Source of the DNA: Fibrobacterota bacterium
Lineage (GTDB): Bacteria > Fibrobacterota > Chitinivibrionia > Chitinivibrionales > FEN-1185
Direction: 5' to 3'
DNA length: 64,000 nucleotides
Assembly: GCA_003165595.1 (NCBI GenBank)
Contig: PLWQ01000012.1
Location: 543,392-607,391 of the forward strand
Every line of letters begins with the position of its first letter. Position 1 is the first letter of the stretch. A program made the translations under genes and the position numbers. Shown here one piece after another: positions 6,313 through 26,125 of the stretch. Under the pieces are notes generated by a model, which was not told the DNA's origin, made no database searches, and saw only the letters and a list, made by a program, of their open reading frames with translations.

Positions 6313-8832
6313 ATGCGCAAATCCGACGCCGAACCAATGACCCAAATGGTCGACAAAGACAACAAGAACTGGTCCGTGCATTTTAAGGGAATGGAGCGGG
6401 ACAACGTCCGGCTCGGGTTTCTCAATAACCTCGAATACAATCTCGCAAAAGATAAGTACTCACTCACGCCGTATGCGCAGTTCCTGAGCCTGGCATACAC
6501 CGTGCGCGACCGGCTCATAGAGCGCTGGATCATTTCCAAGCAGCAGTATCACCAACAGAACGTGAAGCGCGTGTATTACATGTCAATGGAATTCCTGATG
6601 GGACGGCTCCTGTCGAACAACATCATGAACCTCGAGATGTTCGAGAGCTGCAAGAATTCCATGAAAGACCTTGGGCTGGATGTTGAGGACATTCTCGACC
6701 AGGAGGTGGACGCCGGGCTGGGAAACGGCGGCCTGGGCAGGCTTGCGGCCTGTTTCCTCGATTCCATGGCCACGCTGGAGCTGCCGGCCGTGGGCTACGG
6801 AATCCTGTACGAATTCGGGATATTCAACCAGCGGATCATCAACGGCCACCAGGTTGAATTCCCGGAACAGTGGCTGCAGCAGGTGAATCCGTGGGTGATG
6901 GAACGCGCCGAATACAAAGCCCGCATCAAGTACTACGGGAAAACGCTGTACCACACAGATGCGCTGGGCAAGCAGCAGGTGTCGTGGGTGGACACCGACG
7001 AAGTGATTGCGCTGCCCTTCGATGTGCCCGTTCCAGGCTACGGCAACAACACGGTGAACACCCTACGGCTGTGGAGCGCACGCGCGGCCCACGAGTTCAA
7101 TTTCGAATACTTCAACAGCGGCGACTATATCGGCGCGTGCCAGGATAAATTAACAAGCGAGAACATTTCCAAAGTTCTCTATCCCAACGACAACAACCAT
7201 TCCGGCAAGGAGCTGCGCCTCAAGCAGCAGCACTTTTTCACCTCGGCGTCGCTGCAGGACATCATCCGGCGGTATCTCTCGAACAACCCCGATTTCAAGA
7301 GTTTCCCCGACAAGGTGGCCATCCAGCTCAACGATACGCATCCCGCAATCGCCATCGTGGAGCTCATACGCCTCCTGGTGGACGAACACGGGCTTGTGTG
7401 GGACGACGCGTGGGACATTGTGGAGCACACATTCGCGTACACCAACCACACCCTTATGCCCGAGGCGCTCGAACGCTGGCCCGTGAGCCTGATGAAGACG
7501 CTGCTGCCGCGCCACATGGAGATCATTTACGAAATCAACAGCAAGTTCCTGCGCCAGGTGTCGTACAAATACCCCGGCCAGGTCGACAAGCTGCGCGACA
7601 TGTCGCTCATCGAGGAAGGGCCCGACCCAAAGGTGCGCATGGCCTATCTCGCCATCGTCGGATCGCATTCTGTAAACGGTGTTTCCGAATTGCACACCAA
7701 GCTCCTTACCACCGGGCTCGTGAGAAATTTCTTCGACATGTGGCCGGAGAAATTCAACAACAAGACAAACGGCATCACACAGCGGCGCTGGCTCCACGCC
7801 TCGAACCAGTCGCTGTCGTCGCTGATTACGGGCAGAATCGGCGACGGGTGGATAAAAAACCTTTCCGAGCTCAAGAAGATTGCTCCCCTTGCCGGCGACC
7901 CTGAGTTCAGGAAACAGTGGCGCGAGGTCAAGCTGCACAACAAAAACCGGCTCGCGAAGATTCTCAAGAAATGGGAGAACATCCGGATCAACCCGGAGCT
8001 TATGTTCGACGCGCAGGTAAAGCGTATCCACGAATACAAGAGGCAGACACTTAACATTCTCCACTGCATCGCGCTGTACAACGAGATAAAGGCCGGCAGG
8101 AAAAAGGGAATTGCGCCGCGCACCGTGCTCTTTGCCGGCAAGGCGGCGCCCGGCTACTACATGGCCAAACTCCTCATCAAGTTCATCAACAACGTCGCCG
8201 GCGTCATCAACGGCGACCCTGACACTCGCGGCCTCCTCGAAGTGCATTTTCTCCCCAACTACCGCGTGTCGCTCGCCGAGTACATCATGCCCGCCTCCGA
8301 CGTTTCGGAGCAGATATCCACCGCCGGGACCGAAGCGTCGGGAACCGGCAACATGAAATTCGGGCTCAACGGCGCGATCACCATCGGCACCATGGACGGC
8401 GCCAACATCGAAATGTGGGAAGAGGTGGGCGACGAAAACATCTTTATCTTCGGGCTGCGTGCGCCCGAAGTCGACGAGCTGCGTGCAAAGGGATACAATC
8501 CGTGGGACTATTACCACAAGAACGAGAAGCTCAGGAAGGTGATGGACCTGATCTCCCTCGGGTTCTTTAGCCCGGAGGAGCCCCAGCTCTTTCGCCCCAT
8601 TTTCGATTCGCTGCTCAACGGCGGCGACCGGTATATGGTGATGGCCGATTTCGACTCCTATGTCCAGTGCCAGAACACCATTGCCGAAGCGTACCAGGAC
8701 ACCGAGCGGTGGACCAAAATGTCCATCCTCAACGTGGCCAGCATGGGCCGGTTCTCATCGGATCGCACCATCCGGCAATACGCAGAAGAAATCTGGAGCG
8801 TAAAGCCGACGCCCATAAGGCTTGACAGTTAA
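6313..8832 (+). CDS. glgP: Glycogen/starch alpha-glucan phosphorylase
   Basis: 839 residues, full length for the family. It releases glucose-1-phosphate from the non-reducing ends of alpha-1,4-glucans using pyridoxal phosphate. Visible hallmarks: RVYYMSMEFLMGRLL near the start, GNGGLGRLAACFLDSMATL (glycine-rich active-site loop), NDTHPAIAIVELIR, NGITQRRWL, FAGKAAPGYYMAK, and the PLP-lysine motif EASGTGNMKFGLNGA with the following TMDGANIEM. An AAAGGA site precedes the ATG at 6313. No other glycogen gene is adjacent, so it appears to be monocistronic. The 190-base gap after it contains only short GC-rich dyads. Confidence 0.97.
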   Translation: MRKSDAEPMTQMVDKDNKNWSVHFKGMERDNVRLGFLNNLEYNLAKDKYSLTPYAQFLSLAYTVRDRLIERWIISKQQYHQQNVKRVYYMSMEFLMGRLLSNNIMNLEMFESCKNSMKDLGLDVEDILDQEVDAGLGNGGLGRLAACFLDSMATLELPAVGYGILYEFGIFNQRIINGHQVEFPEQWLQQVNPWVMERAEYKARIKYYGKTLYHTDALGKQQVSWVDTDEVIALPFDVPVPGYGNNTVNTLRLWSARAAHEFNFEYFNSGDYIGACQDKLTSENISKVLYPNDNNHSGKELRLKQQHFFTSASLQDIIRRYLSNNPDFKSFPDKVAIQLNDTHPAIAIVELIRLLVDEHGLVWDDAWDIVEHTFAYTNHTLMPEALERWPVSLMKTLLPRHMEIIYEINSKFLRQVSYKYPGQVDKLRDMSLIEEGPDPKVRMAYLAIVGSHSVNGVSELHTKLLTTGLVRNFFDMWPEKFNNKTNGITQRRWLHASNQSLSSLITGRIGDGWIKNLSELKKIAPLAGDPEFRKQWREVKLHNKNRLAKILKKWENIRINPELMFDAQVKRIHEYKRQTLNILHCIALYNEIKAGRKKGIAPRTVLFAGKAAPGYYMAKLLIKFINNVAGVINGDPDTRGLLEVHFLPNYRVSLAEYIMPASDVSEQISTAGTEASGTGNMKFGLNGAITIGTMDGANIEMWEEVGDENIFIFGLRAPEVDELRAKGYNPWDYYHKNEKLRKVMDLISLGFFSPEEPQLFRPIFDSLLNGGDRYMVMADFDSYVQCQNTIAEAYQDTERWTKMSILNVASMGRFSSDRTIRQYAEEIWSVKPTPIRLDS

Positions 8833-9022
8833 TACCTGCGGCGCGGAAGCGCCGAGCCGCGCGTTGCCCGCGCCGAGCTTGTGCCCTGGAAGAGGGCGGG
8901 CAGGACGGGTGAGCTCAAGAAGAAATTCCTGACCGTTACAGGCTCGCGCGTAGCGCGCTCGCCCGGTAGGGCGAATCCTTTTCTTTCTATCGCGGGCATC
9001 GTGAAATATTTTAGAACTGCAT

Positions 9023-10813
9023 ATGCCCGACCCCACCACACTTCCCATTGCCCAGCCCCAGGAAGAGGCCATCAACATCGACGACCTGGCAGCGAGGTCG
9101 CTCTCACTGTTCGACGGACTGGGCGAGCCGTATGCGCCGCTACGCCGGCAGGTTGAAGATGTAAAGCAGCGGCTTTTCTACGGCGAGATACGGCTGGCCG
9201 TGATGGGCCAGTTCAAACGCGGGAAAAGCACGTTTATCAACCGACTCGTGGGGCTCAACGTCCTGCCGGCTTCGGTAGTACCCGTGACCTCGATTCCCAC
9301 GTTTTTGCGATGGGGACCCGAAACGCGCTGCGCCATCCGGTTCTTCGACGGCAAACACGATGTGGTGGTCCAACGGTCCGTACCCGAAATGTCGGCCACG
9401 CTTACCGCCTATGTCACCGAGGAGAAAAACCCCAAGAACCGGTATTGCGTGAGCGAAGCGGTTGTCGAATGCGACAACGCCGTTCTCAAGAACGGCACCG
9501 TCCTCATCGATACGCCCGGGTTCGGCTCAACCTATGTCCACAACACCAAGACTACCGTTGATCTCATCAAAGGGTGCGATGCCGTGCTGTTCCTCCTGAG
9601 CGCGGACCCGCCGTTTACGCAATCGGAAGTTGAATTTCTCAAGGAGGTAAAGCGGTACGTTCCGAGAATCTTCTTTATCATCAACAAAATCGACCAGCTC
9701 ACGGCCGAGGAACTGACCACGCTCGATTCCTTTGTGAAAACCGTCCTGGCGTCCGACCTTTCCTTTGCCACCGACACCCCTCTTTTTCACGTGTCGGCGC
9801 GCAACGCTCCTGTTCCGGGCGCCGACCAGTCCGGCCGGCCCGACGCCAGCGGAATGGATGTTGTCAAGACCGAGATCATCGATTTCATGGTGCGCGAAAA
9901 GTATTTCACCCTGTCACAGGCGGTAACCGGGAAACTCAAGACCGCCCTTGAGGCCGCTGCGCAAAAAATCGCGGAGGACTGCCGCGATATTGAGGAACCC
10001 ATGGCCGCCGCGCGCCGCCGGGGGGAAACGCTCAAGCAGCAGTGCGAGCAGGTGCGAAGGAAAGCCGACAAGGAGCTTTCGCTCATCGACGCCGAGATAA
10101 AGGCGCTCAACGACTATGTTGACAAAACGCTTTATTCAAAGAAGGAAGCACTCCGCGCGAACACCGTAGCCGCAATTGCACGCCTTGTTGACGCCGCGCT
10201 TGCTAACCGCGCCAATCCGGCTTCAACGGTGCGCAGCGCGTTTGGCCCCCTTTTCGACGAAATGTTCGGCCACGTGTTTCTCCAGGTAATCACCGCGCTC
10301 GCGCGGCCGCTTCGGAAAGCCGTGGACCTGCCCTATGCCGAATTTGCAAAGACCGCCGAGGAAGCCCGCCGCGCTTTTGGGACAGAGGTAATCCCTCACG
10401 ACGAGCCGGACCGGACCGCCATGGGCACCGAAATTCCGAACTTTACCTCTGCGAGACCGGAATACACCGTCTCGGCGTTTGACACCATGAGGCAGCCCTC
10501 AGTACCGCTTTTCTGCGGCAAGGAGACGAAGCGCGGGAAGTACTCGGAGGCCCTGCTGCCGGTGGCAGGCGGCATTATCGACGAACGGTTCGAGCAGCTT
10601 TCCCTCCACATCAAAAATTCCATCCGGAAGATCTGTGAGGCCTGCAGGAAAGATCTGCTTGAACGCTATGGTTCCCTTCATGACGAGATGAAGGCGGGTT
10701 TGGAAGAAACCGAAAGGCCGGAAGCCGCAATGAATGAGCACGCAAGGGAAAAACTCAAGACGCTTCTGGAGAAGCGACAGGCGTTGGAGGAACTTGCGAA
10801 GCTGTTGATCTAG
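9023..10813 (+). CDS. Bacterial dynamin-like GTPase
   Basis: 596 residues. GTPase domain in the first 270 residues: G1 GQFKRGKSTFINRL, switch threonine in VPVTSIPTFLRWG, G3 LIDTPGFGS, G4 FIINKIDQL. The remainder is long amphipathic helices (for example the 300-420 region rich in E, K, R and A), as expected for the neck/trunk of dynamin-family proteins that bind membranes or act in chromosome/cell-surface homeostasis. No membrane span is obvious. Bacterial relatives are often paired; here only one copy is present. The start at 9023 lacks a good ribosome site; no better in-frame start is evident. Confidence 0.88.
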   Translation: MPDPTTLPIAQPQEEAINIDDLAARSLSLFDGLGEPYAPLRRQVEDVKQRLFYGEIRLAVMGQFKRGKSTFINRLVGLNVLPASVVPVTSIPTFLRWGPETRCAIRFFDGKHDVVVQRSVPEMSATLTAYVTEEKNPKNRYCVSEAVVECDNAVLKNGTVLIDTPGFGSTYVHNTKTTVDLIKGCDAVLFLLSADPPFTQSEVEFLKEVKRYVPRIFFIINKIDQLTAEELTTLDSFVKTVLASDLSFATDTPLFHVSARNAPVPGADQSGRPDASGMDVVKTEIIDFMVREKYFTLSQAVTGKLKTALEAAAQKIAEDCRDIEEPMAAARRRGETLKQQCEQVRRKADKELSLIDAEIKALNDYVDKTLYSKKEALRANTVAAIARLVDAALANRANPASTVRSAFGPLFDEMFGHVFLQVITALARPLRKAVDLPYAEFAKTAEEARRAFGTEVIPHDEPDRTAMGTEIPNFTSARPEYTVSAFDTMRQPSVPLFCGKETKRGKYSEALLPVAGGIIDERFEQLSLHIKNSIRKICEACRKDLLERYGSLHDEMKAGLEETERPEAAMNEHAREKLKTLLEKRQALEELAKLLI

Positions 10814-12086: not shown

Positions 12087-13283
12087 TCATTTCGGTTGGC
12101 CAGCTTCATCCGGAGTCAATGATATCCGGACAGTGACCTCGCCCTCATCTTCGATGACCGGTACCGGAATCTGAGTAAATCGCGCGACCTTCTTGACAAG
12201 GTCCCGCATTGAATACGACGCATTGCCGATTTTTCCGCCGGGGCAGCTCTCCAGGCACACAATGCACCCGGTACGCATCTTGGGAATGAATTTCTTGTTG
12301 CCGGAAAAGTGGAATGAGAACGGCCTGCCGTTCTCATCTTGCAAGAACTCTGACGGTTGGTACGATTTGCCGCCGTACACTATCTCAACGACAACAGGCG
12401 TTCCTTTTGCAATCCTGTCGGGGCCCAGGTTGCCCGGATTGGATATCTCGGACCACGGATAGAATGTCAGGTTGTTTCCGGAGACCGCGCCAATCGACAT
12501 AAGGGCGTTGCATACGGCACTGTCTGGCGAGTACGCGGTAAACAGAGCGTTGGGCGCGGCAAGGCCGCCTTCCCAGGTAACGAAGCTGTGATCGTGCTGG
12601 CCGCTGCCTGTATTGAAATGGGAAGGATGGTATATGCCGGCAAAATCGATCCTTCTTTTGCTCTTGTCAACGAGAAGGGTGTCTCTCGTCAAGGAAACCG
12701 CAGCGAAACTCGTGAGAACGAACGGGGACAAATACGTATCGATTTCGACGGATCCGAAGGAACATCCTGTAACCGGCGCGCTAACCTTGAGAGAATCGTT
12801 AAGACCGGCTGTCACGATCATGTCCGATACCGAAAGTGACAGCGCCATCTCGCCGGCAAGAGGATCGAGCGTTCTGCTTACGAATCCCAGCGTCGCGTCC
12901 ACATAATCAAATGTCGGGGCGAGCCGCTTGAGGGAAAGCCCTTTGTCCGAAACTTCGGCGAAGCATCTGCCGGCACAGAGCTTGAGCGCGCAGGAACAGT
13001 CTTCGGCCCCCGGCTCCATGGGTGTTCGCGCCTTCACGTGCTCGGGCGGCAAAAAGCCGAGCCTTACGCTGCCGTTTTTTACCTGCGCGCGAGCGGGCAA
13101 AGGTATGATTATTCGTGAATCGGCATTTACCTTTATGCCCGAAGGGTCTTTTTCCCAGGATCCCGCAATTGTCTTGACCGGAATGATTTGCTGGTCGAAA
13201 TCGATAGACAACAGCGTTTGTTGGGCGGCGTGGCATGTGAAAAACGCAAGGGTAACCGACATTGCAGCTTTCATAAACGACAT
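12087..13283 (-). CDS. Secreted protein with YdjY-like C-terminal region
   Basis: 398 residues with a signal peptide (MSFMKAAMSVTLAFFTCHAA). The first half looks like a beta-sandwich beginning TLLSIDFDQQIIPVKTIAGS. From about residue 210 the pattern SKRRIDFAGIYHPSHFNTG, HSFVTWEGGLAAPNALFTAY, AVCNALMSIGA and PVVVEIVYGGK resembles the YdjY domain, which is found in periplasmic proteins of unknown role. The C-terminal third has a CIVCLESCPGG motif that could be a disulfide pair or metal site. The start at 13283 has a GAGG site seven bases upstream. Function unknown; the YdjY link is by eye and moderate at best. Confidence 0.65.
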   Translation of the reverse strand: MSFMKAAMSVTLAFFTCHAAQQTLLSIDFDQQIIPVKTIAGSWEKDPSGIKVNADSRIIIPLPARAQVKNGSVRLGFLPPEHVKARTPMEPGAEDCSCALKLCAGRCFAEVSDKGLSLKRLAPTFDYVDATLGFVSRTLDPLAGEMALSLSVSDMIVTAGLNDSLKVSAPVTGCSFGSVEIDTYLSPFVLTSFAAVSLTRDTLLVDKSKRRIDFAGIYHPSHFNTGSGQHDHSFVTWEGGLAAPNALFTAYSPDSAVCNALMSIGAVSGNNLTFYPWSEISNPGNLGPDRIAKGTPVVVEIVYGGKSYQPSEFLQDENGRPFSFHFSGNKKFIPKMRTGCIVCLESCPGGKIGNASYSMRDLVKKVARFTQIPVPVIEDEGEVTVRISLTPDEAGQPK

Positions 13284-13645: not shown

Positions 13646-14971
13646 ATGGCCCGGGTCGCTTTGGTATATCCCTATTTTCGCACCCATTCCGCAACGGAAC
13701 TCCTGTTCCCCCCGCTCGGAGTCGCGGCGCTTGCCGGCCGGCTTCACACAAGGGGAATAGACGCCCGGGTGTTCGATTGCACGTTCTCTTCCCTTGATGA
13801 AATCGGCGATTCGCTGACCTCGTATAGTCCGGATATTGTCGGGATCTATTGTATGGTCACCATGAGTCGGGCCGCATTTCGTATTGCCGAATTGGCGCGG
13901 GCGCGATACAAAGGATGCCTGATTGTTGCCGGAGGGCCATTGCCAACGTTATACCCTGAAAATTTCATGGGGCGCTTCGACGCCGTGTTTCGCGGCGAAG
14001 CCGATACGGCCTTCCCTGATTTTTGCCATGATCTCTTCACCCTCTGCGCTTCCCCGCAGGATTTTTTACGGTTGCCGCTAGCCCTGTACGACGGACTGTA
14101 CGTGCGGCGCTACAATAGAGAAATCAGCAACCCTCCCACGCACCATACGGAAAAAGAAATCCAGTCGTTTCCGCAGCCCTGCAGAACCGATTTCGACCAT
14201 AATGCATATCAGCGCATCTGGATGGATATCGAGGGTTCAAAAACGACTTCCCTTATAACGACGCTCGGGTGCCCCTTCGGGTGCGATTTTTGTTCAAAGC
14301 CCGTGTTTGGAAACGTATTCCGTAAAAGAAACCTTGATGCGGTATTCGAAGAAATCGAAGAAATCCGTTTCCTCGGTTACAATAGCCTCTGGATTGCCGA
14401 CGACAATTTCACGCTGGACCTATCGTTTCTCAAGGAATTTTGCAACCGTATGGCGGGCCGCCAAATTTCGTGGAGTTGCCTCTCGCGCGTTACGGGGATC
14501 GACGGCAATACGGCGCGAATGATGAAGGAAGCGGGCTGCTCGCGGGTGTACCTGGGTCTCGAAACCGGCAGCGATGTGGTGCTGCGGCTGATGAAAAAAC
14601 AGGCAACGCTCCAGGATGGGGCGGACGCCGCCCACTTGTTTCACAACGCGGGCATATCCGTGGCCGCGTTCTTTATCGTGGGATATCCCGGCGAAAACGT
14701 CGAAACGATCGAACGGACGTTTCACTACGCGCTCGACCTGCCGCTCGACATCGCGTCCTTCAACGTGCCGCTGCCGCTGCCGGGGTCGGGGCTGTTCGAC
14801 CGCGTAAGTGGCCTTGACAAGAACAAAGACTGGACCACAGAGAACGAAGTCACGTTTGTTTACAATTCAGAATTCGATCCCGTTTGGCTGCAACGCCGGA
14901 TTTCGCAGACAATGCAGGCCGTGGCAAAACGAAAGAAACAGGCCATTGTTCTTGAATTGCAGCCCGCGTGA
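13646..14971 (+). CDS. Cobalamin-binding-type radical SAM protein
   Basis: 441 residues. Residues 1-125 form a B12-binding-like Rossmann domain (ARVALVYPYF, FPPLGVAALAGRLHTRG, VGIYCMVTM, VAGGPLPT); no DxHxxG motif is seen, as in many enzymes of this class. The radical SAM core follows, with the 4Fe-4S cysteines C209, C213 and C216 in LGCPFGCDFC, the SAM-binding WIADDNFTLD, and GCSRVYLGLETGSD. Such enzymes methylate, cyclise or rearrange unactivated carbons in lipids, cofactors and natural products. It sits behind a sigma-54 promoter and faces a paralogue (14998-16368) tail to tail, 26 bases apart. Substrate unknown. Confidence 0.9.
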   Translation: MARVALVYPYFRTHSATELLFPPLGVAALAGRLHTRGIDARVFDCTFSSLDEIGDSLTSYSPDIVGIYCMVTMSRAAFRIAELARARYKGCLIVAGGPLPTLYPENFMGRFDAVFRGEADTAFPDFCHDLFTLCASPQDFLRLPLALYDGLYVRRYNREISNPPTHHTEKEIQSFPQPCRTDFDHNAYQRIWMDIEGSKTTSLITTLGCPFGCDFCSKPVFGNVFRKRNLDAVFEEIEEIRFLGYNSLWIADDNFTLDLSFLKEFCNRMAGRQISWSCLSRVTGIDGNTARMMKEAGCSRVYLGLETGSDVVLRLMKKQATLQDGADAAHLFHNAGISVAAFFIVGYPGENVETIERTFHYALDLPLDIASFNVPLPLPGSGLFDRVSGLDKNKDWTTENEVTFVYNSEFDPVWLQRRISQTMQAVAKRKKQAIVLELQPA

Positions 14972-14997
14972 TGGTCATGGGCTTTTGGCCCTCAAGG

Positions 14998-16368
14998 TCA
15001 TCGAAACAACCGCAAAAGGCCGTCGGTTGATGTTTCGAACAGCCGGACCAGGATGGGAGCACGCCTCCCCAGTCTTTTCCGCAGTTCAAACTGGAACCTT
15101 CCTTTAAGGATTCCAAACATCATCTTGATTTTAGAAAAATCCCCCTTGAACACGAACGTGTGGCCAGCAAACACGCTTTCGTCCTGCCGCCAGTCGCGGT
15201 TAATCCGGGTTTTGATCCGCTTGTGCAGGGCGGTGCCGGGCAATGGATACGGCACGGTGAGCCCGAGGTAATCGAGCGGCAGCGACGTGGCGAACCGGAG
15301 CGTTTCGATAACGGTGTCGTTGGTATCTCCGGGGTAAAAAAGAATGAAGAAAGCTCCCACCTGCAACCCGGCTTCATGTGCCGCTTCCACTGCCCGCCCG
15401 GCCTGCACCGCGGTGATGTTCTTGTTCATGAGATACAATATCCTGTCGCTGCCCGATTCGATCCCGAAATAGATCCTCGTGCATCCGGCCTTTTTCATCG
15501 CATGTGCGGTATCGAAGTCCATTGTATCAACGCGCCCCAGGCACTCCCATCCGAACACGAGTCCCCGCCGGCGTATTTCCTCGCACACGCGCAGTACCCT
15601 GTCCCGTTTCATGGTAAACACATCGTCGGCAAATGAGATTCGGCTGTAGCCCATGTCAAGCGCCGACTCGATTTCGTCCACGACGTTTTCGGGCGAGCGC
15701 TCGCGATACGACCCGCCGAACACGACATTGCTGCAGAATTCGCATTTGTAAGGACAGCCACGGGTGCTCATCACGGTAGTCACCGGAGCACCGTGCTTCT
15801 TCTTACCGTGCCGGATATACTCGTTGTTGGGAAACATGTCGCGGGCGGGAAAAGGAAGGCGATCCAGGTCCGTCGCGAAAGGCCGCGGCCTGGTGATGTG
15901 CACGATCCTGCGTTCACCGCCCGGTGGCCCCTCTGTTCTGAATGCAATACCGGCGACGCGATCCATAGAGGCCCCGGTGTCAACGGCGTGCAGAAGTTCA
16001 ACCACGGTCCGTTCCCCTTCCCCGCAAACGACTACGTCGAAATGGTGCAGAAAAGGCGCGGGATCGCAGGTAGGAAGCGGCCCTCCCGCAATGAGGAGTT
16101 TGCAATGCGGACGCAATTCACGCGCAAACCGTATGCAGTCTTCACGCATGGTAACCATGCAATAGATGCCCACGGCATCGGCTTTTGCCGTCAAAGCCTG
16201 CGCGAGCGCATTTTCGCGTGTCAAGAACGTACAGTCGAGCACTCGCACGTTACGGCCGTCCTGTCTGAGCGCGGACGCGATATAGCCGATCCCCAGCGGA
16301 GGGAACCGGAAGACCGACCGGTCGCGCCGGGGGAGAAAATATGGATAGATGAGCAGAACTGAGGTCAC
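14998..16368 (-). CDS. Cobalamin-binding-type radical SAM protein (paralogue)
   Basis: 456 residues from a GTG start that overlaps the TGA of the preceding gene (ATGTGACC) and has GAGGG just upstream; a longer frame with other starts is rejected because it would run into the neighbour. N-terminal B12-type domain (VLLIYPYF, FPPLGIGYIASALRQDG, VGIYCMVTM, IAGGPLPT), then radical SAM cysteines C205, C209 and C212 in RGCPYKCEFC, and GCTRIYFGIESGSD. Its blocks match the 13646 protein almost one to one, so the two are paralogues that may act on related substrates. It is the last gene of an operon with a glycosyltransferase and an unknown protein. Confidence 0.9.
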   Translation of the reverse strand: MTSVLLIYPYFLPRRDRSVFRFPPLGIGYIASALRQDGRNVRVLDCTFLTRENALAQALTAKADAVGIYCMVTMREDCIRFARELRPHCKLLIAGGPLPTCDPAPFLHHFDVVVCGEGERTVVELLHAVDTGASMDRVAGIAFRTEGPPGGERRIVHITRPRPFATDLDRLPFPARDMFPNNEYIRHGKKKHGAPVTTVMSTRGCPYKCEFCSNVVFGGSYRERSPENVVDEIESALDMGYSRISFADDVFTMKRDRVLRVCEEIRRRGLVFGWECLGRVDTMDFDTAHAMKKAGCTRIYFGIESGSDRILYLMNKNITAVQAGRAVEAAHEAGLQVGAFFILFYPGDTNDTVIETLRFATSLPLDYLGLTVPYPLPGTALHKRIKTRINRDWRQDESVFAGHTFVFKGDFSKIKMMFGILKGRFQFELRKRLGRRAPILVRLFETSTDGLLRLFR

Positions 16369-17201
16369 ATGTCCCTCGTAATACGCAGCGTGTAACGGAC
16401 CGTTTGCCCCAGGGAAGGAAAGGAATAGCCGAAACCGCTCCAGGCGAGCCTGGACCCCACGAGCTCCCGCCCGCGGAACAACCGGCCTCCCTGGGCTTTT
16501 TCGGCGGTAAAGCTGGCGTGCGTGACCGATCCGCCAAACGAAGCTTCGCCGGCCTCTACTTCGTCCCAGCACCCTATTTTCTTACCGCCAAGCGATAACC
16601 CGGACGAATCGATGTAGCGCTGGAAAAAATGTGCACCCTGTTCGTTCATCAGGACAAATTCGGAAACGCCGCGCCCGGTGATACCGGACGTGTCGGCCTC
16701 AACCAAAAGCGTTCCGGCTTCTGCGTCCACCGTATACATTATCGCGACATTGTCGCTTTTCTCGGCGCACTCGTAAACGGTTTGCAGTCCGAATACCAGC
16801 CGGACCGCGCTTGATGCAGCAGTAAGAGCCGCGCGCGACAAGGGTATTGTACGGATGGCCGCTGCCAGCGAGTTTTTTATCCCGTAAACAAACCCGTTTC
16901 CGACGATACCTCTTCCCGGCCGGCAAATTTTCTCCTCCAGATTGAGCGTAAACCTTGCGGCGACCCTCCACACACTCTTGTCCCGCGTAAGCGACATCTC
17001 AACCGCGCCGGGAAACAACGCACGGATCCCCCGCTTGACAACCGGAACGCCGAACCCAACCGCCTCCTCTGCCAGACAGCGTCCGTTGTCACAAAGGAGC
17101 CATCCCTTTTGCAGGGCCGAGGTTGCGTACCCGTTGCCGGTGGCGCGACCGTCGTTCATGGAAAGGCTCAAGCCCCGTTGCAGGGGAATGGTGATGTTCA
17201 T
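16365..17201 (-). CDS. Protein of unknown function in the radical SAM/glycosyltransferase operon
   Basis: 278 residues, no signal peptide and no membrane helix, predicted mostly beta strand. It starts MNITIPLQRGLSLSMNDGRA and ends TLRITRDM, with the TGA overlapping the GTG of the radical SAM gene. The upstream glycosyltransferase gene ends 22 bases before its start, so the three are co-transcribed. Segments such as NEQGAHFFQRYIDSSGLSLG and GYSFPSLGQTVRYTLRI look like a carbohydrate-binding or sugar-mutarotase-like fold, but I recognise no family motif. Function unknown; context points to a glycan or glycolipid intermediate. Confidence 0.7.
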   Translation of the reverse strand: MNITIPLQRGLSLSMNDGRATGNGYATSALQKGWLLCDNGRCLAEEAVGFGVPVVKRGIRALFPGAVEMSLTRDKSVWRVAARFTLNLEEKICRPGRGIVGNGFVYGIKNSLAAAIRTIPLSRAALTAASSAVRLVFGLQTVYECAEKSDNVAIMYTVDAEAGTLLVEADTSGITGRGVSEFVLMNEQGAHFFQRYIDSSGLSLGGKKIGCWDEVEAGEASFGGSVTHASFTAEKAQGGRLFRGRELVGSRLAWSGFGYSFPSLGQTVRYTLRITRDM

Positions 17202-17223
17202 AGGGGTTTTCCCATCCGCGTTT

Positions 17224-18525
17224 TCATCGTTGCGCAGCCATGGCGGAAAGGGGCCCCTTTTTCATACAGGCCGCCACGATGGCCCATCCGGCAATAAACC
17301 ATGCCGTCACGACGGCCGACCGCGCGATCAGCCTTTCCATGCGACAATCCCCCGCAATCCTGAGCAGTTGTTCCATGATGTGCGGCATGCCGGGGAAAAA
17401 CACTAATGCCACGGAGGCATTGAAAATACTGAACGCAAGAGTCAAGACCCACACGGCATGCAAAAGCGGTCTCGGAAGGCCGCCCCCTGACACGGCAATA
17501 ACCAGGAAGGGGATCAGCACAACGATGTTCGGCTCGGACAGCCAGGAGCGCGTAAGAAAAAACACAAGGAGCAGCGCGGCGGATTTCTTAAGGAGGTCAT
17601 CGAGCCCTCCAATGCCCCCGCGCAAGAAGAATATCGCGAGGCAAAGCGCCGGGACCCACAAAAACCCCGCAAGCTGCCACTGGCCGTTAAGTCGAGACGC
17701 ATTCGGAATAAATTCCAGAAACGCAAGGAACGACATTCCCCCACCCGCAATAAAATGCACGTTCCAGTTCCTTACAATAACAGCCGGGTCCCATCCAAAT
17801 ACGATAAACGGTCCGGCACATGAAAATAAAACAACCATGGAAAAGACAAATCCAAACCACGCGGCCTGCCGCCAGGACCGCGATAACAGGTACATAACGG
17901 CTACGGGGACAAGGGGAAGTGCTATCGGTTTAAAGGCGATTGCCAAGCCAAGAAGAAAAGCCGACCGTCCGTACTTCCCCGAATCAAGAAGAATGAGCGC
18001 CGCAAGCGACAGTGCGGCTACAATGGAATCGATTTGGCCCCACGCCGCCGTAGCATACAGGATAAACGGATTGAAGAGCATGAAAATCCATGCGCTCCGC
18101 GTAGCCCGGGCCGAAACGCCCAATTTCCCAAGGACCTCCTTTACGAGGAATGCGAGCCATATGTTGGCCGCGATGATGGGAAGCTTGATCGCCAGATTGT
18201 ATGCAAGCAGGCCGGGGGCGGCGGCATATACGCATTTATAGATTAATGCGAGCAGCAGCGGCCAGGGCGGCGGATACCCGATCGTGGTGAATTCCTTGAA
18301 CAGCCAGCTGTGGAAGACCGCACTCAGGTCATGCGCTAAATAGGGATTTTGGCCTGCCGCCGTCAGAAAACCCGCCGCCATGTTGACGCGCATGTCAATG
18401 AGGTGTCCGAAGAACAGCGCGAGCGTAAGCTGCACGCTAACGCTCAATGCCAAAGGCCACAGCTCCCGGGGCCACAACCGGTCGAGGCACGTACCCAGCG
18501 GCTTGTTGAATGGGAAAAGGGGCAT
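17224..18525 (-). CDS. Polytopic membrane glycosyltransferase (GT87/DUF2029-like)
   Basis: 433 residues with about ten hydrophobic segments. The pattern is that of polyprenol-phosphate-sugar-dependent GT-C enzymes: an early acidic periplasmic loop (HLIDMRVNMAAGFL), AGQNPYLAHD, GYPPPWPLLLALIY, then FNPFILYATAAWGQIDSIVAAL (the WGQxD motif) and GLAIAFKPIALPL. Such enzymes transfer mannose or another sugar from a lipid carrier to lipids or polymers on the outer face of the inner membrane. It is the first gene of a three-gene operon ending in a B12-type radical SAM enzyme. Donor and acceptor are unknown. Confidence 0.8.
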   Translation of the reverse strand: MPLFPFNKPLGTCLDRLWPRELWPLALSVSVQLTLALFFGHLIDMRVNMAAGFLTAAGQNPYLAHDLSAVFHSWLFKEFTTIGYPPPWPLLLALIYKCVYAAAPGLLAYNLAIKLPIIAANIWLAFLVKEVLGKLGVSARATRSAWIFMLFNPFILYATAAWGQIDSIVAALSLAALILLDSGKYGRSAFLLGLAIAFKPIALPLVPVAVMYLLSRSWRQAAWFGFVFSMVVLFSCAGPFIVFGWDPAVIVRNWNVHFIAGGGMSFLAFLEFIPNASRLNGQWQLAGFLWVPALCLAIFFLRGGIGGLDDLLKKSAALLLVFFLTRSWLSEPNIVVLIPFLVIAVSGGGLPRPLLHAVWVLTLAFSIFNASVALVFFPGMPHIMEQLLRIAGDCRMERLIARSAVVTAWFIAGWAIVAACMKKGPLSAMAAQR

Positions 18526-18628: not shown

Positions 18629-19600
18629 CTAGCGCAACAGCCAGCTCCGCAAGGCCGTCAGCGACGCGCTGTCGACCTCAAACCTGAAATCTGGCTCGCC
18701 ATTTTTGCACATGTCGAACCAAAGCATCGCCTCAATACAGGGATTACAGTCCATGAACGATAATACCTGGCCCAGCCACTCCGGCTTTCGTTCATCGGCG
18801 GCGCAGCCGATTTCGGTGATCCATACCGGCTTTCCCAGGCTCCGTGCAGCAACAAGTGATTGGCCGAAAATATCCCAAAACGATTGCCATTCATGGCCTG
18901 CCGCGGCATCGTCACCGAAATTGTATCCGTCAAGGCCGACGATGTCCACCACGGAATCGCCAGGATAATACGCCATGATACCGTCCTGCGCCCTCATGGT
19001 GCCCCACAGCACGCCGGGCGCAAACACCCACTCCACATTGTCCGCCTTTTCCTGCGTAAAGACTCCGTGCGCGTGGCGCCATGCGGACAAGAATTCCGCG
19101 GGCTTTTCGCCCCATGGAAACCAATACCCGTTCATTTCATACCCGAAACGCAAGTACACGGGAACTGCGGCCAGTTTTGCCTGCCTGGCAAAAACCGCGA
19201 GCGTGCTGTCCCATGCTCCCTGCGCTATCTCTCTCAGCAAGGTATCATTCCTGAGGGAATCACACCGGAGCGACATGAGATTCAGGCTTATGACGGTGCC
19301 TATGGCGCGGCCGGCATTGGAGGAAACAACGGTCAAGGGAAAAGGATCGTCGATCTGCTGGAACCAAAGGATGTACGCCGGTTTGGTGCCGAACAGTGAG
19401 GTAAAGGTATCCAGGGTCGAGGAATAATCAGAATAGAGCTTGTCGGAAAAGAACCCGAACCGCTGGCTATTGGAACGGATAGTGACAGAAGCGCCTTCGC
19501 AGATAACACGTGGCTCAGGAGGCGGTGTTGGTTGAGTACCACAGAGGCACAGAGCCACCAGGGAGCACGCAGCCATCCGCAGGCATAAGACGCTGTGCAT
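18629..19600 (-). CDS. Secreted GH26-like glycoside hydrolase
   Basis: 323 residues with an N-terminal hydrophobic export signal (CSLVALCLCGT). The catalytic (beta/alpha)8 pattern of family 26 is visible: acid/base E155 in YLRFGYEMNGYWFPWG, the conserved tryptophan/histidine-bearing AWRHAHGVFTQEKADNVEWVFAPG, and nucleophile E263 in PVWITEIGCAADE. Family members cut beta-mannan, mixed-link glucan or xylan; specificity cannot be read here. Oddly, the signal-peptide region reads through a dispersed repeat (19538-19554, minus strand) also found at 53622, so the N-terminus may be recent. The gene follows a TIM-barrel hydrolase gene at 24 bases. Confidence 0.8.
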   Translation of the reverse strand: MHSVLCLRMAACSLVALCLCGTQPTPPPEPRVICEGASVTIRSNSQRFGFFSDKLYSDYSSTLDTFTSLFGTKPAYILWFQQIDDPFPLTVVSSNAGRAIGTVISLNLMSLRCDSLRNDTLLREIAQGAWDSTLAVFARQAKLAAVPVYLRFGYEMNGYWFPWGEKPAEFLSAWRHAHGVFTQEKADNVEWVFAPGVLWGTMRAQDGIMAYYPGDSVVDIVGLDGYNFGDDAAAGHEWQSFWDIFGQSLVAARSLGKPVWITEIGCAADERKPEWLGQVLSFMDCNPCIEAMLWFDMCKNGEPDFRFEVDSASLTALRSWLLR

Positions 19601-23147: not shown

Positions 23148-23333
23148 CTAACCCCCGCGACTTGCGTTAGGGTTCTTCAATGGGCGCATCGCCGCCCGCC
23201 CGTGGCGTTCGCAATTGCGCCAGAAATGCCGCCACCCCGGTGTCCCCCTCCGCCGGCGACCACGTCGCCTGCGCGGGGAAGCGGCCGCCCGGACGGAAAG
23301 ATCGCGAAACACCTCTGTGCCGAATACCTTCAT
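23148..23333 (-). pseudogene. Possible small gene with a frameshift, overlapping the GIY-YIG stop
   Basis: An ATG at 23333 overlaps the TGA of the GIY-YIG gene (ATGA) and has AAAGGAG upstream. The frame begins MKVFGTEVFRDLSVR and then becomes implausibly arginine-rich. In another frame the same DNA encodes RFPAQATWSPAEGDTGVAAF and ends IEEP, which looks much more like protein. A one-base indel near 23280 (in a GC run) would join them into a protein of about 55 residues. It could be a real frameshift, a sequencing error, or chance. No family recognised. Confidence 0.3.
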
Positions 23334-23671
23334 ACCCCTCGCTCCTTTTGCACTGTAGCTCCGCGCACGAGTATCATTTTCTTTTCTCTCCCGAGTTTCT
23401 TGACCGCATGCTCGCGCCTGAGAGCGTGGCTCCTGGATCGGCACGGTTCGCAGTACACGAGCGAAAGCGGGCCGCGGCCACGGGTGTATCGCGCTCCCCT
23501 GCCTGCGCGGTGGCGGGCCAGTCGGGCCGCAACATCGGGAGTGGCGCCGGTGTAGAGAGTCCGGTCGCCGCATTCCAGGATGTAAACAAACCATCTGGCA
23601 TGACGCTTGCAGGGCTTCTTTGTATGACTCTCGGCGGCAGATTTCGAACGTCGCGATGGTTTTTGGGGCAT
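23330..23671 (-). CDS. GIY-YIG domain endonuclease-like protein
   Basis: 113 residues from the ATG at 23671 (an in-frame GTG at 23728 would add 19 residues; neither has a strong ribosome site). The domain is of the small UvrC/YhbQ type: WFVYILECGDRTLYTGATPD contains the GIY-YIG-equivalent VYI...LYTG, followed by the conserved arginine in HRAGRGARYTRGRGPLSLVY and the glutamate in ALRREHAVKKL. These stand-alone proteins are structure-specific nucleases or DNA-binding proteins of unclear role. The N-terminal 25 residues are basic. Confidence 0.82.
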   Translation of the reverse strand: MPQKPSRRSKSAAESHTKKPCKRHARWFVYILECGDRTLYTGATPDVAARLARHRAGRGARYTRGRGPLSLVYCEPCRSRSHALRREHAVKKLGREKKMILVRGATVQKERGV

Positions 23672-23799
23672 AGTCGCAAAATAACTTTCCGCAGCCACAC
23701 GTTTGTGGCGCTGAACCAGGAACTTCACTTGGGCCGCCGTCGCTCATCGGCGGGGCGCCTGAAATCACCTACAGTATTTGCAAGCATGAGTAACAAATT

Positions 23800-23829
23800 T
23801 TGGCAATTTCCCAAATCGCGTGCTATACT
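23800..23829 (+). promoter_or_regulatory. Sigma-70 promoter for the subtilase gene
   Basis: TTGGCA (23800-23805) and TATACT (23824-23829) are 18 bases apart, with a TG-type extension (TGC) before the -10. Transcription would start about 25 bases before the ATG at 23861. Confidence 0.6.
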
Positions 23830-23860
23830 ATGTTCAGGGACTGCGGTGAGGAGTATGCGC

Positions 23861-26125
23861 ATGAAGTTCTGTTTCCGCAGCACAATCATTTTGCTGCTTG
23901 CAGGTAGTTTCTCGATAAGCCCTTTGAATGCCCGGGAATTGGGCCGCTGCCTCGGGACATTCGAAATAGGAAAGAATCCCCTGCTGCCCACCCCGGAAAA
24001 TCTCCGGCAGGCCTCGGCGGACATTCAGGAATCCGGCTGCAAAAAGACCATCCGGGTTCTCGCCCTTGTCGATCCTGCGTTCTCGCCCTCGGCGCTCGCC
24101 CCGGCCGGCTGGCGGCTTGTCGCGCAAGTCAACGATGTCGTGTCCCTCGAAGGATGCGAGCATACCGCGCCCTATCTTACCGCGATTCCCGGGATTCTTT
24201 CGGTTGAACACAGGACGCACCTGTTTCCGAGCCTGGATTCGGCGCGCAAGTTTACGCATATCAACGAAGTGCAGGGCTATGCGCCGAGCGGTCTTTCCAA
24301 GCATTTTACGGGCAAGCGCGTGCTGTTCGGCATCCTGGACACGGAGTTCGACACGCATCACCCGGCCTTTCTGGATTCGCTGGGCCACACGCGGTTTGTG
24401 GGCCTCTGGGACCAGACCGACACGTCGAATATCCGCAGGAACCGGTTCGGGTACGGGCTGATCCGCATGCAGCAGGAGATTGACAAAGACACGGTCTTCG
24501 GCCTCGGCGACTATTCGCATGGGACAATGATGGCGGGCATGGCCGTGGGATCGGACAAGAAATACGGGTATTGGGGCGCAGCTCCCGAGGCGACGGTGAT
24601 CGGCGTAAAATACGGCAGCGCCAGCGGCACCACCGCAGACATCGTAAACGGGCTCACCTGGATTTTCTCCATCGCCGATTCACTCAAGATGCCCTGCGTG
24701 GTGAACATGAGCATCGGCTTGCAGGAAGGTCCCCATGACGGCACATCGCTGGTGGACCGCGCAATCGATTCGCTTTCCGGACTCAGCCCTAAGACGGGCC
24801 TCAGCCGCATTGTGGTTGGTGCAGCGGGTAACGACGGCGCAACAAGAGTGCATATCGCCTTCAAGCTTGCGGCAGGGGAGACAAAGGGAACCTTGGTGTG
24901 GTCGGAGGATGAATGGGACGCCGCAGCCCCCAACGGCGGCAAGTGGCTCGCCTATTCGCTTGTTGACATATGGGGACAGCCCAATGTTCCTTTTTCCGAC
25001 ACGCTGTACATTCTGGCGGACAGCTTCAACACATTCAAGAAAGCCCTTACGCCGCTTACCACGAACATAAAGACCGCTACGAGTCAATCGCAGAACGAAC
25101 TGCTCTGGCCCGATGCGGTAAAGGGGCCCGATACGCTCATCATACAGACGTTTGTCGAGCGGGCCAATGCGACAAACCAGAAGCCGCATATGGAAATCTA
25201 CATGTTTTCCAGTAATTGGTCCCTTATCCTGGGCGTGCGGGTCACGGCGAGCGCCGCGTGCACCATACATGCGTGGAATGCCTACAAACGCGACATGAAC
25301 GGCGACGGCGCTACCTCAGGCTTCTCTCCCGGCGATACAACAATGACGATCAATGAAGTAGGCGGTACCGCCCACCGGATCATCACTGTGGGAAGTTACA
25401 GCACTAAGTCGTACCTCACGCTGTACGACGGCTCTCCATTCGGGCAGCCGGATTCTTCGTTGTACCAGTGGGCCTCGTGGTCGAGCATCGGGCCGACGGT
25501 TGACGGAAGAATAAAGCCCGACATATGCGCGCCGGGACAAGTGGTGGTGGGCGCCATGGCAAGGAACGTCACCGACACTACACACCTCGTGGTGTGGCCC
25601 AACAAGGCGAGCACGGAGGGACGGTATGAGTGGCGCAACGGCACGTCGATTTCCGCGCCCATCGTTGCCGGCATCGTGGCGCTCATGCTCCAGGTCGACT
25701 CAACCTTGACGCCCGAGACCGTCGTGTCGACCCTGCAGAAGAATGCCATAAACGACGCGTTTACCGGAAAGATTTCCTCACCCTACGACGTTCGTTGGGG
25801 TGCGGGCAAAGTGGACGCGCTTGCGGCAATCGAGGCCCTTGGCGTACCCGTGTCGACAACCCGGGCGAGGAACCAGTGGTCGGTCGTCGCGGGCGCAGTG
25901 CATGCGGCGATCCGAGGCCAAAACGAGCTGGAAGTGTGCGGTGTCGGCGCGAGCGAACAGACTGTTGTGGAGATTTTCGACACCCGCGGGTGCATGCTTG
26001 CAAAAATTCCCGCCGCAGGCAACCGGCCCGTTGCCATCCCCGGCTCGATTGCAAAGGGCTGTCTTGTCCTGCGGGTGAGGTACAAGGGCGGTGTGAGCGC
26101 AGCGCAGACTTTTCCCCGCCTGTAG
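23861..26125 (+). CDS. Secreted subtilisin-like serine protease (S8) with sorting-like tail
   Basis: 754 residues. Signal peptide MKFCFRSTIILLLAGSFSIS; the start is set by GAGGAG seven bases upstream (an ATG six bases earlier is too close to it, and the frame further upstream overlaps a gene on the other strand). Catalytic triad: D160 in FGILDTEFDTHHPAF, H220 in DYSHGTMMAG, S596 in NGTSISAPIVAGI. A long insert (about 330-500) between H and S blocks is as in S8A Kp43/Bacteroidetes-type subtilases with a beta-sandwich. The C-terminal 75 residues (ASEQTVVEIFDTRGCMLAKI ...) resemble a type IX sorting tail. Probably an extracellular or surface protease. Confidence 0.9.
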   Translation: MKFCFRSTIILLLAGSFSISPLNARELGRCLGTFEIGKNPLLPTPENLRQASADIQESGCKKTIRVLALVDPAFSPSALAPAGWRLVAQVNDVVSLEGCEHTAPYLTAIPGILSVEHRTHLFPSLDSARKFTHINEVQGYAPSGLSKHFTGKRVLFGILDTEFDTHHPAFLDSLGHTRFVGLWDQTDTSNIRRNRFGYGLIRMQQEIDKDTVFGLGDYSHGTMMAGMAVGSDKKYGYWGAAPEATVIGVKYGSASGTTADIVNGLTWIFSIADSLKMPCVVNMSIGLQEGPHDGTSLVDRAIDSLSGLSPKTGLSRIVVGAAGNDGATRVHIAFKLAAGETKGTLVWSEDEWDAAAPNGGKWLAYSLVDIWGQPNVPFSDTLYILADSFNTFKKALTPLTTNIKTATSQSQNELLWPDAVKGPDTLIIQTFVERANATNQKPHMEIYMFSSNWSLILGVRVTASAACTIHAWNAYKRDMNGDGATSGFSPGDTTMTINEVGGTAHRIITVGSYSTKSYLTLYDGSPFGQPDSSLYQWASWSSIGPTVDGRIKPDICAPGQVVVGAMARNVTDTTHLVVWPNKASTEGRYEWRNGTSISAPIVAGIVALMLQVDSTLTPETVVSTLQKNAINDAFTGKISSPYDVRWGAGKVDALAAIEALGVPVSTTRARNQWSVVAGAVHAAIRGQNELEVCGVGASEQTVVEIFDTRGCMLAKIPAAGNRPVAIPGSIAKGCLVLRVRYKGGVSAAQTFPRL

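Follow-up and report, generated by a model that had tools for sequence, protein, structure and literature searches.

A four-gene locus in a Chitinivibrionales-type Fibrobacterota genome encodes two B12-type radical SAM enzymes (rSAM-A and rSAM-B), a probable GT-C glycosyltransferase (P0004) and the protein P0003, which is best described on the available evidence as an unnamed protein family at the centre of a probable glycosyltransferase and B12 radical SAM system for a membrane-linked sugar. That the locus is a real functional unit is strongly supported, and its linkage goes beyond chance because the same genes recur in the same order in another phylum. The four genes probably make up a conserved module, spread by horizontal transfer, for the synthesis and remodelling of a glycan or glycolipid linked to the membrane; the presumed substrate is a sugar-lipid.

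Organization of the locus

The window analyzed here, a stretch of 64,000 nucleotides, is part of a 673-kb contig in a 5.39-Mb genome. Inspection of the sequence and its open reading frames places the four genes where the initial annotation had put them (Table 1), and the tight operon of GT-C, P0003 and rSAM-B described there, converging on rSAM-A, is evident from the 22-nt spacing between GT-C and P0003, the 4-nt overlap at the following junction, and the 26 nt between the facing stop codons.

Table 1. Coordinates of the features of the four-gene locus within the window.
Feature	Coordinates	Strand	Description
rSAM-A	13646..14971	+	441-aa radical SAM enzyme with B12-binding domain, paralogous to rSAM-B
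Convergent gap between stop codons of rSAM-A and rSAM-B	14972..14997	.	26 nt of sequence
rSAM-B	14998..16368	-	456-aa radical SAM enzyme with B12-binding domain; starts with GTG; final gene of operon
GTGA overlap, P0003 stop and rSAM-B start	16365..16368	-	4 nt, translational coupling
P0003	16365..17201	-	Unnamed protein family, 278 aa, predicted mutarotase-like beta-supersandwich
P0004 (GT-C)	17224..18525	-	Probable GT-C glycosyltransferase of PimE/PIG-M-like type, multi-membrane, 433 aa; opens the operon

Divergent from rSAM-A lies a gene (12087-13283, minus strand) for a YdjY-domain protein (NCBIfam NF040466) with a MRTGCIVCLESCPGGK motif. It was considered as a fifth member of the cassette and rejected, being present in six Fibrobacterota genomes that lack the cassette and absent from the Chloroflexota loci. 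A gene for a GH26-like glycoside hydrolase (18629-19600, minus strand) is located 103 nt upstream of the GT-C gene in the same direction; it adjoins the cassette in no other carrier and was likewise rejected as a member. Elsewhere in the window, a Dynamin-family GTPase (9023-10813, plus strand; Pfam Dynamin_N) is encoded that is missing from the syntenic region of the same-genus genome G001, and a GIY-YIG-nuclease-like ORF (23330-23728, minus strand) overlaps the 5' part of a subtilase-like ORF on the opposite strand (23180-26125), the true start of which is probably further downstream.

The two B12 radical SAM enzymes

Both radical SAM proteins exceed the Pfam cut-offs for B12-binding (PF02310, 32.1 bits) and Radical_SAM (29.5 bits), with scores of 58.8 and 88 bits for rSAM-A and 63.3 and 96.6 bits for rSAM-B, and both contain the CxxxCxxC motif, in the forms GCPFGCDFCS and GCPYKCEFCS. 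An N-terminal cobalamin-binding domain is predicted in each, and with it the binding of cobalamin. The block-for-block match between the two proteins reported in the initial annotation extends across both domains at 37% identity over 419 aligned residues (E 4e-85), and among the proteins of the host genome, which encodes ∼30 with a B12-binding domain, the two are each other's closest relatives. Orthologues of rSAM-A have 58-65% identity in Anaerolineales (65% and 58%) and 59% in G002, a genome of the same family as that of the window, and rSAM-B is 62-66% identical to the radical SAM enzymes adjacent to P0003 in four other genomes.

In a maximum-likelihood tree from a rapid search that used a limited set of references, rSAM-A, rSAM-B, and the enzymes of the type-2 and type-3 loci described below each form a clade (SH-aLRT 100). 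All radical SAM enzymes linked to P0003 group in a single clade (SH-aLRT 98), to the exclusion of 25 further B12 radical SAM enzymes from these genomes. Each type forms its own clade, and therefore the split between rSAM-A and rSAM-B predates the spread of the cassette between phyla. The Fibrobacterota copies of rSAM-A do not form a clade of their own inside the rSAM-A tree.

None of these enzymes reaches an equivalog cut-off of the NCBIfam models for HpnJ, BchE, PhpK, AprD4, ApyD, or MJ_0865. The nearest named models, all far under cut-off, are HpnJ, BchE, PhpK, ApyD, and MJ_0865, a set that mixes methylases and RiPP enzymes with HpnJ and BchE, and the sub-threshold matches of the pair also include AprD4 and, in addition to ApyD, the RiPP model rSAM_ocin_1. 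Against the HpnJ model (TIGR03471, cut-off 577.6 bits) rSAM-B scores 139.6 bits, the other enzyme of the pair 104 bits, and one fusion-type radical SAM enzyme 146 bits, and the HpnR cut-off of 650 bits is likewise missed by far. Few B12 radical SAM enzymes with reactions other than methylation have been characterized, and every one of them creates or rearranges a ring or a bond (PMC13142503).

The P0003 family

P0003 matches no Pfam or NCBIfam family over cut-off. Structure prediction, which had been proposed for this 278-residue protein, yields an AlphaFold2 model with pLDDT 79 and pTM 0.81, for which the best Foldseek matches, weak and of mutarotase type, are to the folds of rhamnogalacturonan lyase and galactose-mutarotase-like supersandwiches (E 3e-4 to 1e-3, TM only ∼0.45). 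The likeness is one of fold: identity to these proteins is ∼10% or less, the conserved residues differ, and a PDB profile search gives nothing usable for P0003 and detects no sequence relation to either group. P0003 carries the motifs LQKG, EE..GFG.P, and MNEQGA, and residues L30, Q31, G33, E45, E46, GFG 49-51, P53, D170, MNEQGA 185-190, W212, E246, and W254 are invariant across types 1 and 2. Type-1 P0003 carries a two-helix insert (residues 103-137) and has neither signal peptide nor membrane helix, whereas the type-2 form lacks the insert and has an N-terminal membrane helix. A radical SAM enzyme of the same kind is adjacent to P0003 relatives in every locus where the contig permitted the check. 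No relative is present in the plasmid and viral collections searched, so that there is no sign of plasmid or phage carriage in them.

The glycosyltransferases

The label "GT87-like" given to P0004 in the initial annotation is only partly borne out. The Pfam scores are sub-threshold for GT87 (19.1 bits, cut-off 25), PIG-M (19.3 bits, cut-off 23.4), and Alg6_Alg8 (21.8 bits, cut-off 25), with the orthologue in L007 just reaching the last of these (25.1 bits), and a PDB profile search gives nothing usable for the GT-C protein; fold comparison, however, independently ranks enzymes of the PimE/PIG-M type first. The top two Foldseek matches in the PDB are PimE and GPI mannosyltransferase I, users of polyprenyl- or dolichyl-phosphate-mannose, with a probability of 1.0 for a model of pLDDT only 65. 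PimE takes a polyprenyl-phosphate mannose donor; its catalytic Asp is located in a juxtamembrane helix on the outer side, and a Lys and a Gln are needed (PMC12041525). P0004 and its four orthologues keep D44, WGQxD 162-166, and KP 199-200, and by analogy these may correspond to the PimE residues: the WGQxD...KP motifs, and the conserved Asp in the loop that follows membrane helix 1, look similar in the two. The differences are nevertheless considerable, with 16-18% identity, TM 0.44-0.59, a weak model, and missed Pfam cut-offs for GT87 and PIG-M.

In Chloroflexota the cassette is headed by a QxxRW GT2, whereas no GT2 is adjacent to it in Fibrobacterota; a GT2 that is 46% identical is encoded alone in the window's genome, ∼54 kb away. 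The Chloroflexota GT2 resembles BcsA, its nearest solved structure, and other QxxRW enzymes in its FDADF, EDLD, and QQGRW motifs, its transmembrane helices, and significant overall similarity. It differs from BcsA in scoring 111.7 bits against the CelA cut-off of 699, in lacking a BcsB, and in being fused to membrane and P0003 domains in other genomes.

Distribution in Fibrobacterota

P0003, GT-C, and rSAM-A are each present in the same two of 168 Fibrobacterota genomes, those of the window and G002 (79% complete). A third P0003 match (L003 in G083) is antisense to a glycoside-hydrolase-like ORF and hence spurious. In G002 the order GT-C, P0003, rSAM-B is kept together with the 4-nt overlap. 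The rSAM-A gene of G002 is on another contig, where, as in the window, it adjoins the YdjY-domain gene, but its 3' side faces another gene, so that the tail-to-tail order is not evident there.

In G001 the genes flanking the locus on both sides are syntenic, and at the syntenic site rSAM-A, rSAM-B, P0003, GT-C, and the GH26-like gene are all missing, with the YdjY gene present as a C-terminal remnant of 132 codons. The simplest reading of this absence is a block deletion cutting into YdjY. Because the flanks are syntenic in a genome of the same genus, a binning artefact is unlikely for the cassette block. In the corresponding G001 region (L097, G001:C61:20000-39900), an outer-membrane-like ORF of 247 aa and the truncated YdjY gene occupy the place of the cassette at ∼8100-9700.

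Three architectures in Chloroflexota

A scan of 84,980 genomes with the two-sequence P0003 alignment identified P0003 in three Anaerolineales (Chloroflexota) besides G002, and the closest cassette-bearing relative of the host in that scan is a Chitinivibrionales MAG (Fibrobacterota). In all three Anaerolineales the genes for GT2, GT-C, and P0003 are consecutive (type 1). In L008, P0003 is followed by rSAM-B and then by rSAM-A tail to tail, which is the arrangement in the window, and the tail-to-tail pair also occurs in L052. The contig of L007 stops inside rSAM-B. In G170 the tail-to-tail pair is on a second contig that ends just past the rSAM-B start, and we infer that it is linked to P0003. 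The 4-nt overlap of P0003 with rSAM-B recurs in L006, L007, and L008, and an equivalent overlap at the P0003/radical SAM junction is found in the fusion loci L118-L121.

When 396 genomes of Anaerolineae, the class to which G169 belongs, were searched with a profile, distant P0003 relatives were found in eight other genomes (type 2). The type-2 run begins with an unknown gene, a B12 radical SAM enzyme, an FG-GAP protein, and a membrane-anchored P0003 relative, and continues with a PMT-type GT-C, a Polysacc_synt flippase, a Wzy_C O-antigen-ligase-like protein, and a methyltransferase. The radical SAM gene is present in seven of the eight loci, the eighth contig ending before it. The conserved eight-gene cluster is seen at L046 486-10642 and in L044, L045, L050, and L051, and its first gene (L051 4880-5833, plus strand) encodes a protein of ∼317 aa without a Pfam or NCBIfam match.

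In a search of 400 Chloroflexota genomes the P0003 domain was found in ∼20 more genomes (type 3), where, in each of the seven loci that were read completely, it forms the C-terminus of a ∼1200-residue fusion of GT2, multi-membrane, and P0003 parts. The N-terminus is of the same GT2 family as that of the cassette (profile E about 1e-91 to 1e-99). A radical SAM gene of the same kind is next in 19 of 19 loci, the one in L124 having been read directly, and it overlaps the fusion gene by 4 nt in four of the first five. The middle part was considered as a cassette-type GT-C and rejected, since the GT-C profile gives no match there; it is a putative different or very diverged transferase. The fusion in one protein argues strongly for a substrate common to GT2 and P0003. 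The concern raised in the initial annotation, that homologues of these genes might never be neighbours elsewhere, is thus answered by a set that is kept together in Fibrobacterota and Chloroflexota, with a P0003 relative fused to a GT2 in other genomes.

Proposed function and alternatives

The reading as a glycan module is supported by the conserved gene order, the GT2-P0003 fusion, the single clade of linked radical SAM enzymes, the lack of the whole block in G001, and the predicted folds, PimE/PIG-M-like for the GT-C and sugar-enzyme-like for P0003. A lipid-linked glycan is proposed as fitting both these fold matches and the presence of GT2, GT-C, flippase, and ligase-like partners. Two enzymes would assemble a chain of sugars on a carrier lipid: the GT2, which is cassette-encoded in Chloroflexota and in the window's genome may come from another part of the chromosome, and the PimE/PIG-M-like GT-C, using a polyprenyl-phosphate sugar donor. 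The cytoplasmic rSAM-B and rSAM-A would then alter this lipid-linked sugar, or the lipid itself, at the inner face of the membrane, either by rearranging a ring or C-C bonds or removing oxygen in the manner of HpnJ or calditol synthase, or by C-methylation; reactions of these kinds are more likely than modification of nucleic acid or peptide. P0003 would be a carbohydrate-binding or carbohydrate-acting protein on the same substrate, and may act on either side of the membrane, given that the type-1 form has no signal peptide or membrane helix and the type-2 form has a membrane helix. The sidedness of the module and the order of its steps are given here as we infer them.

Two known systems are comparable. 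In the HpnI-HpnK-HpnJ pathway to bacteriohopanetetrol cyclitol ether, a membrane lipid receives a sugar from a GT2, and this sugar is then converted into the cyclitol ether by a radical SAM enzyme (PMC12583986), so that a glycosyltransferase and then a radical SAM enzyme act on a lipid-linked sugar. However, most of the cassette carriers tested lack hopanoid synthesis, no deacetylase is seen, GT-C and P0003 have no counterpart in that pathway, and the HpnJ score of rSAM-B is far from the cut-off. Calditol synthase (Cds) of Sulfolobales is a radical SAM enzyme that contracts a lipid-linked glucose, proposedly between two glycosyltransferase steps (PMC9385802). The cassette would resemble it in logic, a radical SAM enzyme on a lipid-linked sugar; the substrate of Cds is an archaeal tetraether, and no P0003-like partner has been described for it. 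The initial annotation knew of no named pathway for this set, and none of the papers searched here describes it.

The most serious alternative, which we regard as possible but doubtful, is surface polysaccharide assembly, in which the GT2 would be a processive polymerase, the GT-C would add side sugars, P0003 would bind the polymer, and the radical SAM enzymes would modify the polymer or its nucleotide-sugar precursors, with no membrane lipid as end product. The proximity of the GT2 to bacterial cellulose synthase among solved structures, its FDADF and QQxRW motifs, and the flippase and Wzy_C ligase-like protein of the type-2 clusters are in its favour, but no BcsB-like or secretion partner is seen, the Fibrobacterota type-1 set has no flippase or polymerase, and the predicted fold of the GT-C is like those of PimE and PIG-M, which act on glycolipids. 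Modification of a terpenoid or hopanoid lipid, of the methyl-hopanoid or BHT cyclitol ether type, is very improbable. Of the named models, HpnJ gives one of the highest scores with rSAM-B and with the fusion-type enzyme, and the window's genome has one squalene-hopene cyclase, yet the HpnJ and HpnR cut-offs are missed by far and this is the only one of ten genomes tested to have the cyclase. None is found in G002 (where, at 79% completeness, absence is weak evidence), G168, G169, G170, or four type-2 genomes. Hopanoid is thus not the general substrate, and a hopanoid link as a general rule was rejected. The cyclase gene of the window's genome lies at G000:C6:4629-5501, and the same-genus G001 does not have one.

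A sugar-modifying or protein-glycosylation system in which the glycosyltransferases attach a peptide or cofactor product of the radical SAM pair is improbable; the sub-threshold matches to ApyD, rSAM_ocin_1, and AprD4 are compatible with it, but the short gaps of the cassette contain no visible precursor-peptide gene, and P0003, a conserved globular domain that is also fused to GT2, is not a precursor peptide. That the genes are accidental neighbours travelling on a transferred island without shared function might be suggested by the patchy distribution and by the Fibrobacterota copies forming no clade in the rSAM-A tree, but with order, orientation, and the 4-nt overlap kept across phyla, the GT2-P0003 fusion, and radical SAM linkage in every informative locus, it is extremely improbable. 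The lipid or glycan modification role put forward in the initial annotation is, in its general form, the best available reading, fitting the glycosyltransferase, flippase, and ligase-like partners, while its hopanoid version is unsupported by the other carriers tested.

Significance

Within the preferred reading of a module for a membrane-linked glycan or glycolipid, a more speculative proposal, less likely to be correct than the general one, is that the cassette makes a new class of bacterial membrane glycolipid. Its sugar head group, for example a carbocyclic or C-C-linked one, would be rebuilt in two consecutive steps by the B12 radical SAM enzymes, and P0003 would be the founding member of a new family of proteins that handle glycans and are fused to glycosyltransferases in other Chloroflexota. 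Across Chloroflexota and Fibrobacterota, two phyla in which envelope chemistry is poorly known, three architectures link glycosyltransferases to the P0003 family and to its associated B12 radical SAM clade. The four-gene cassette and its fused relative provide a compact, expressible target for new radical chemistry on lipids or sugars, and the product of the cassette is a possible lipid biomarker.
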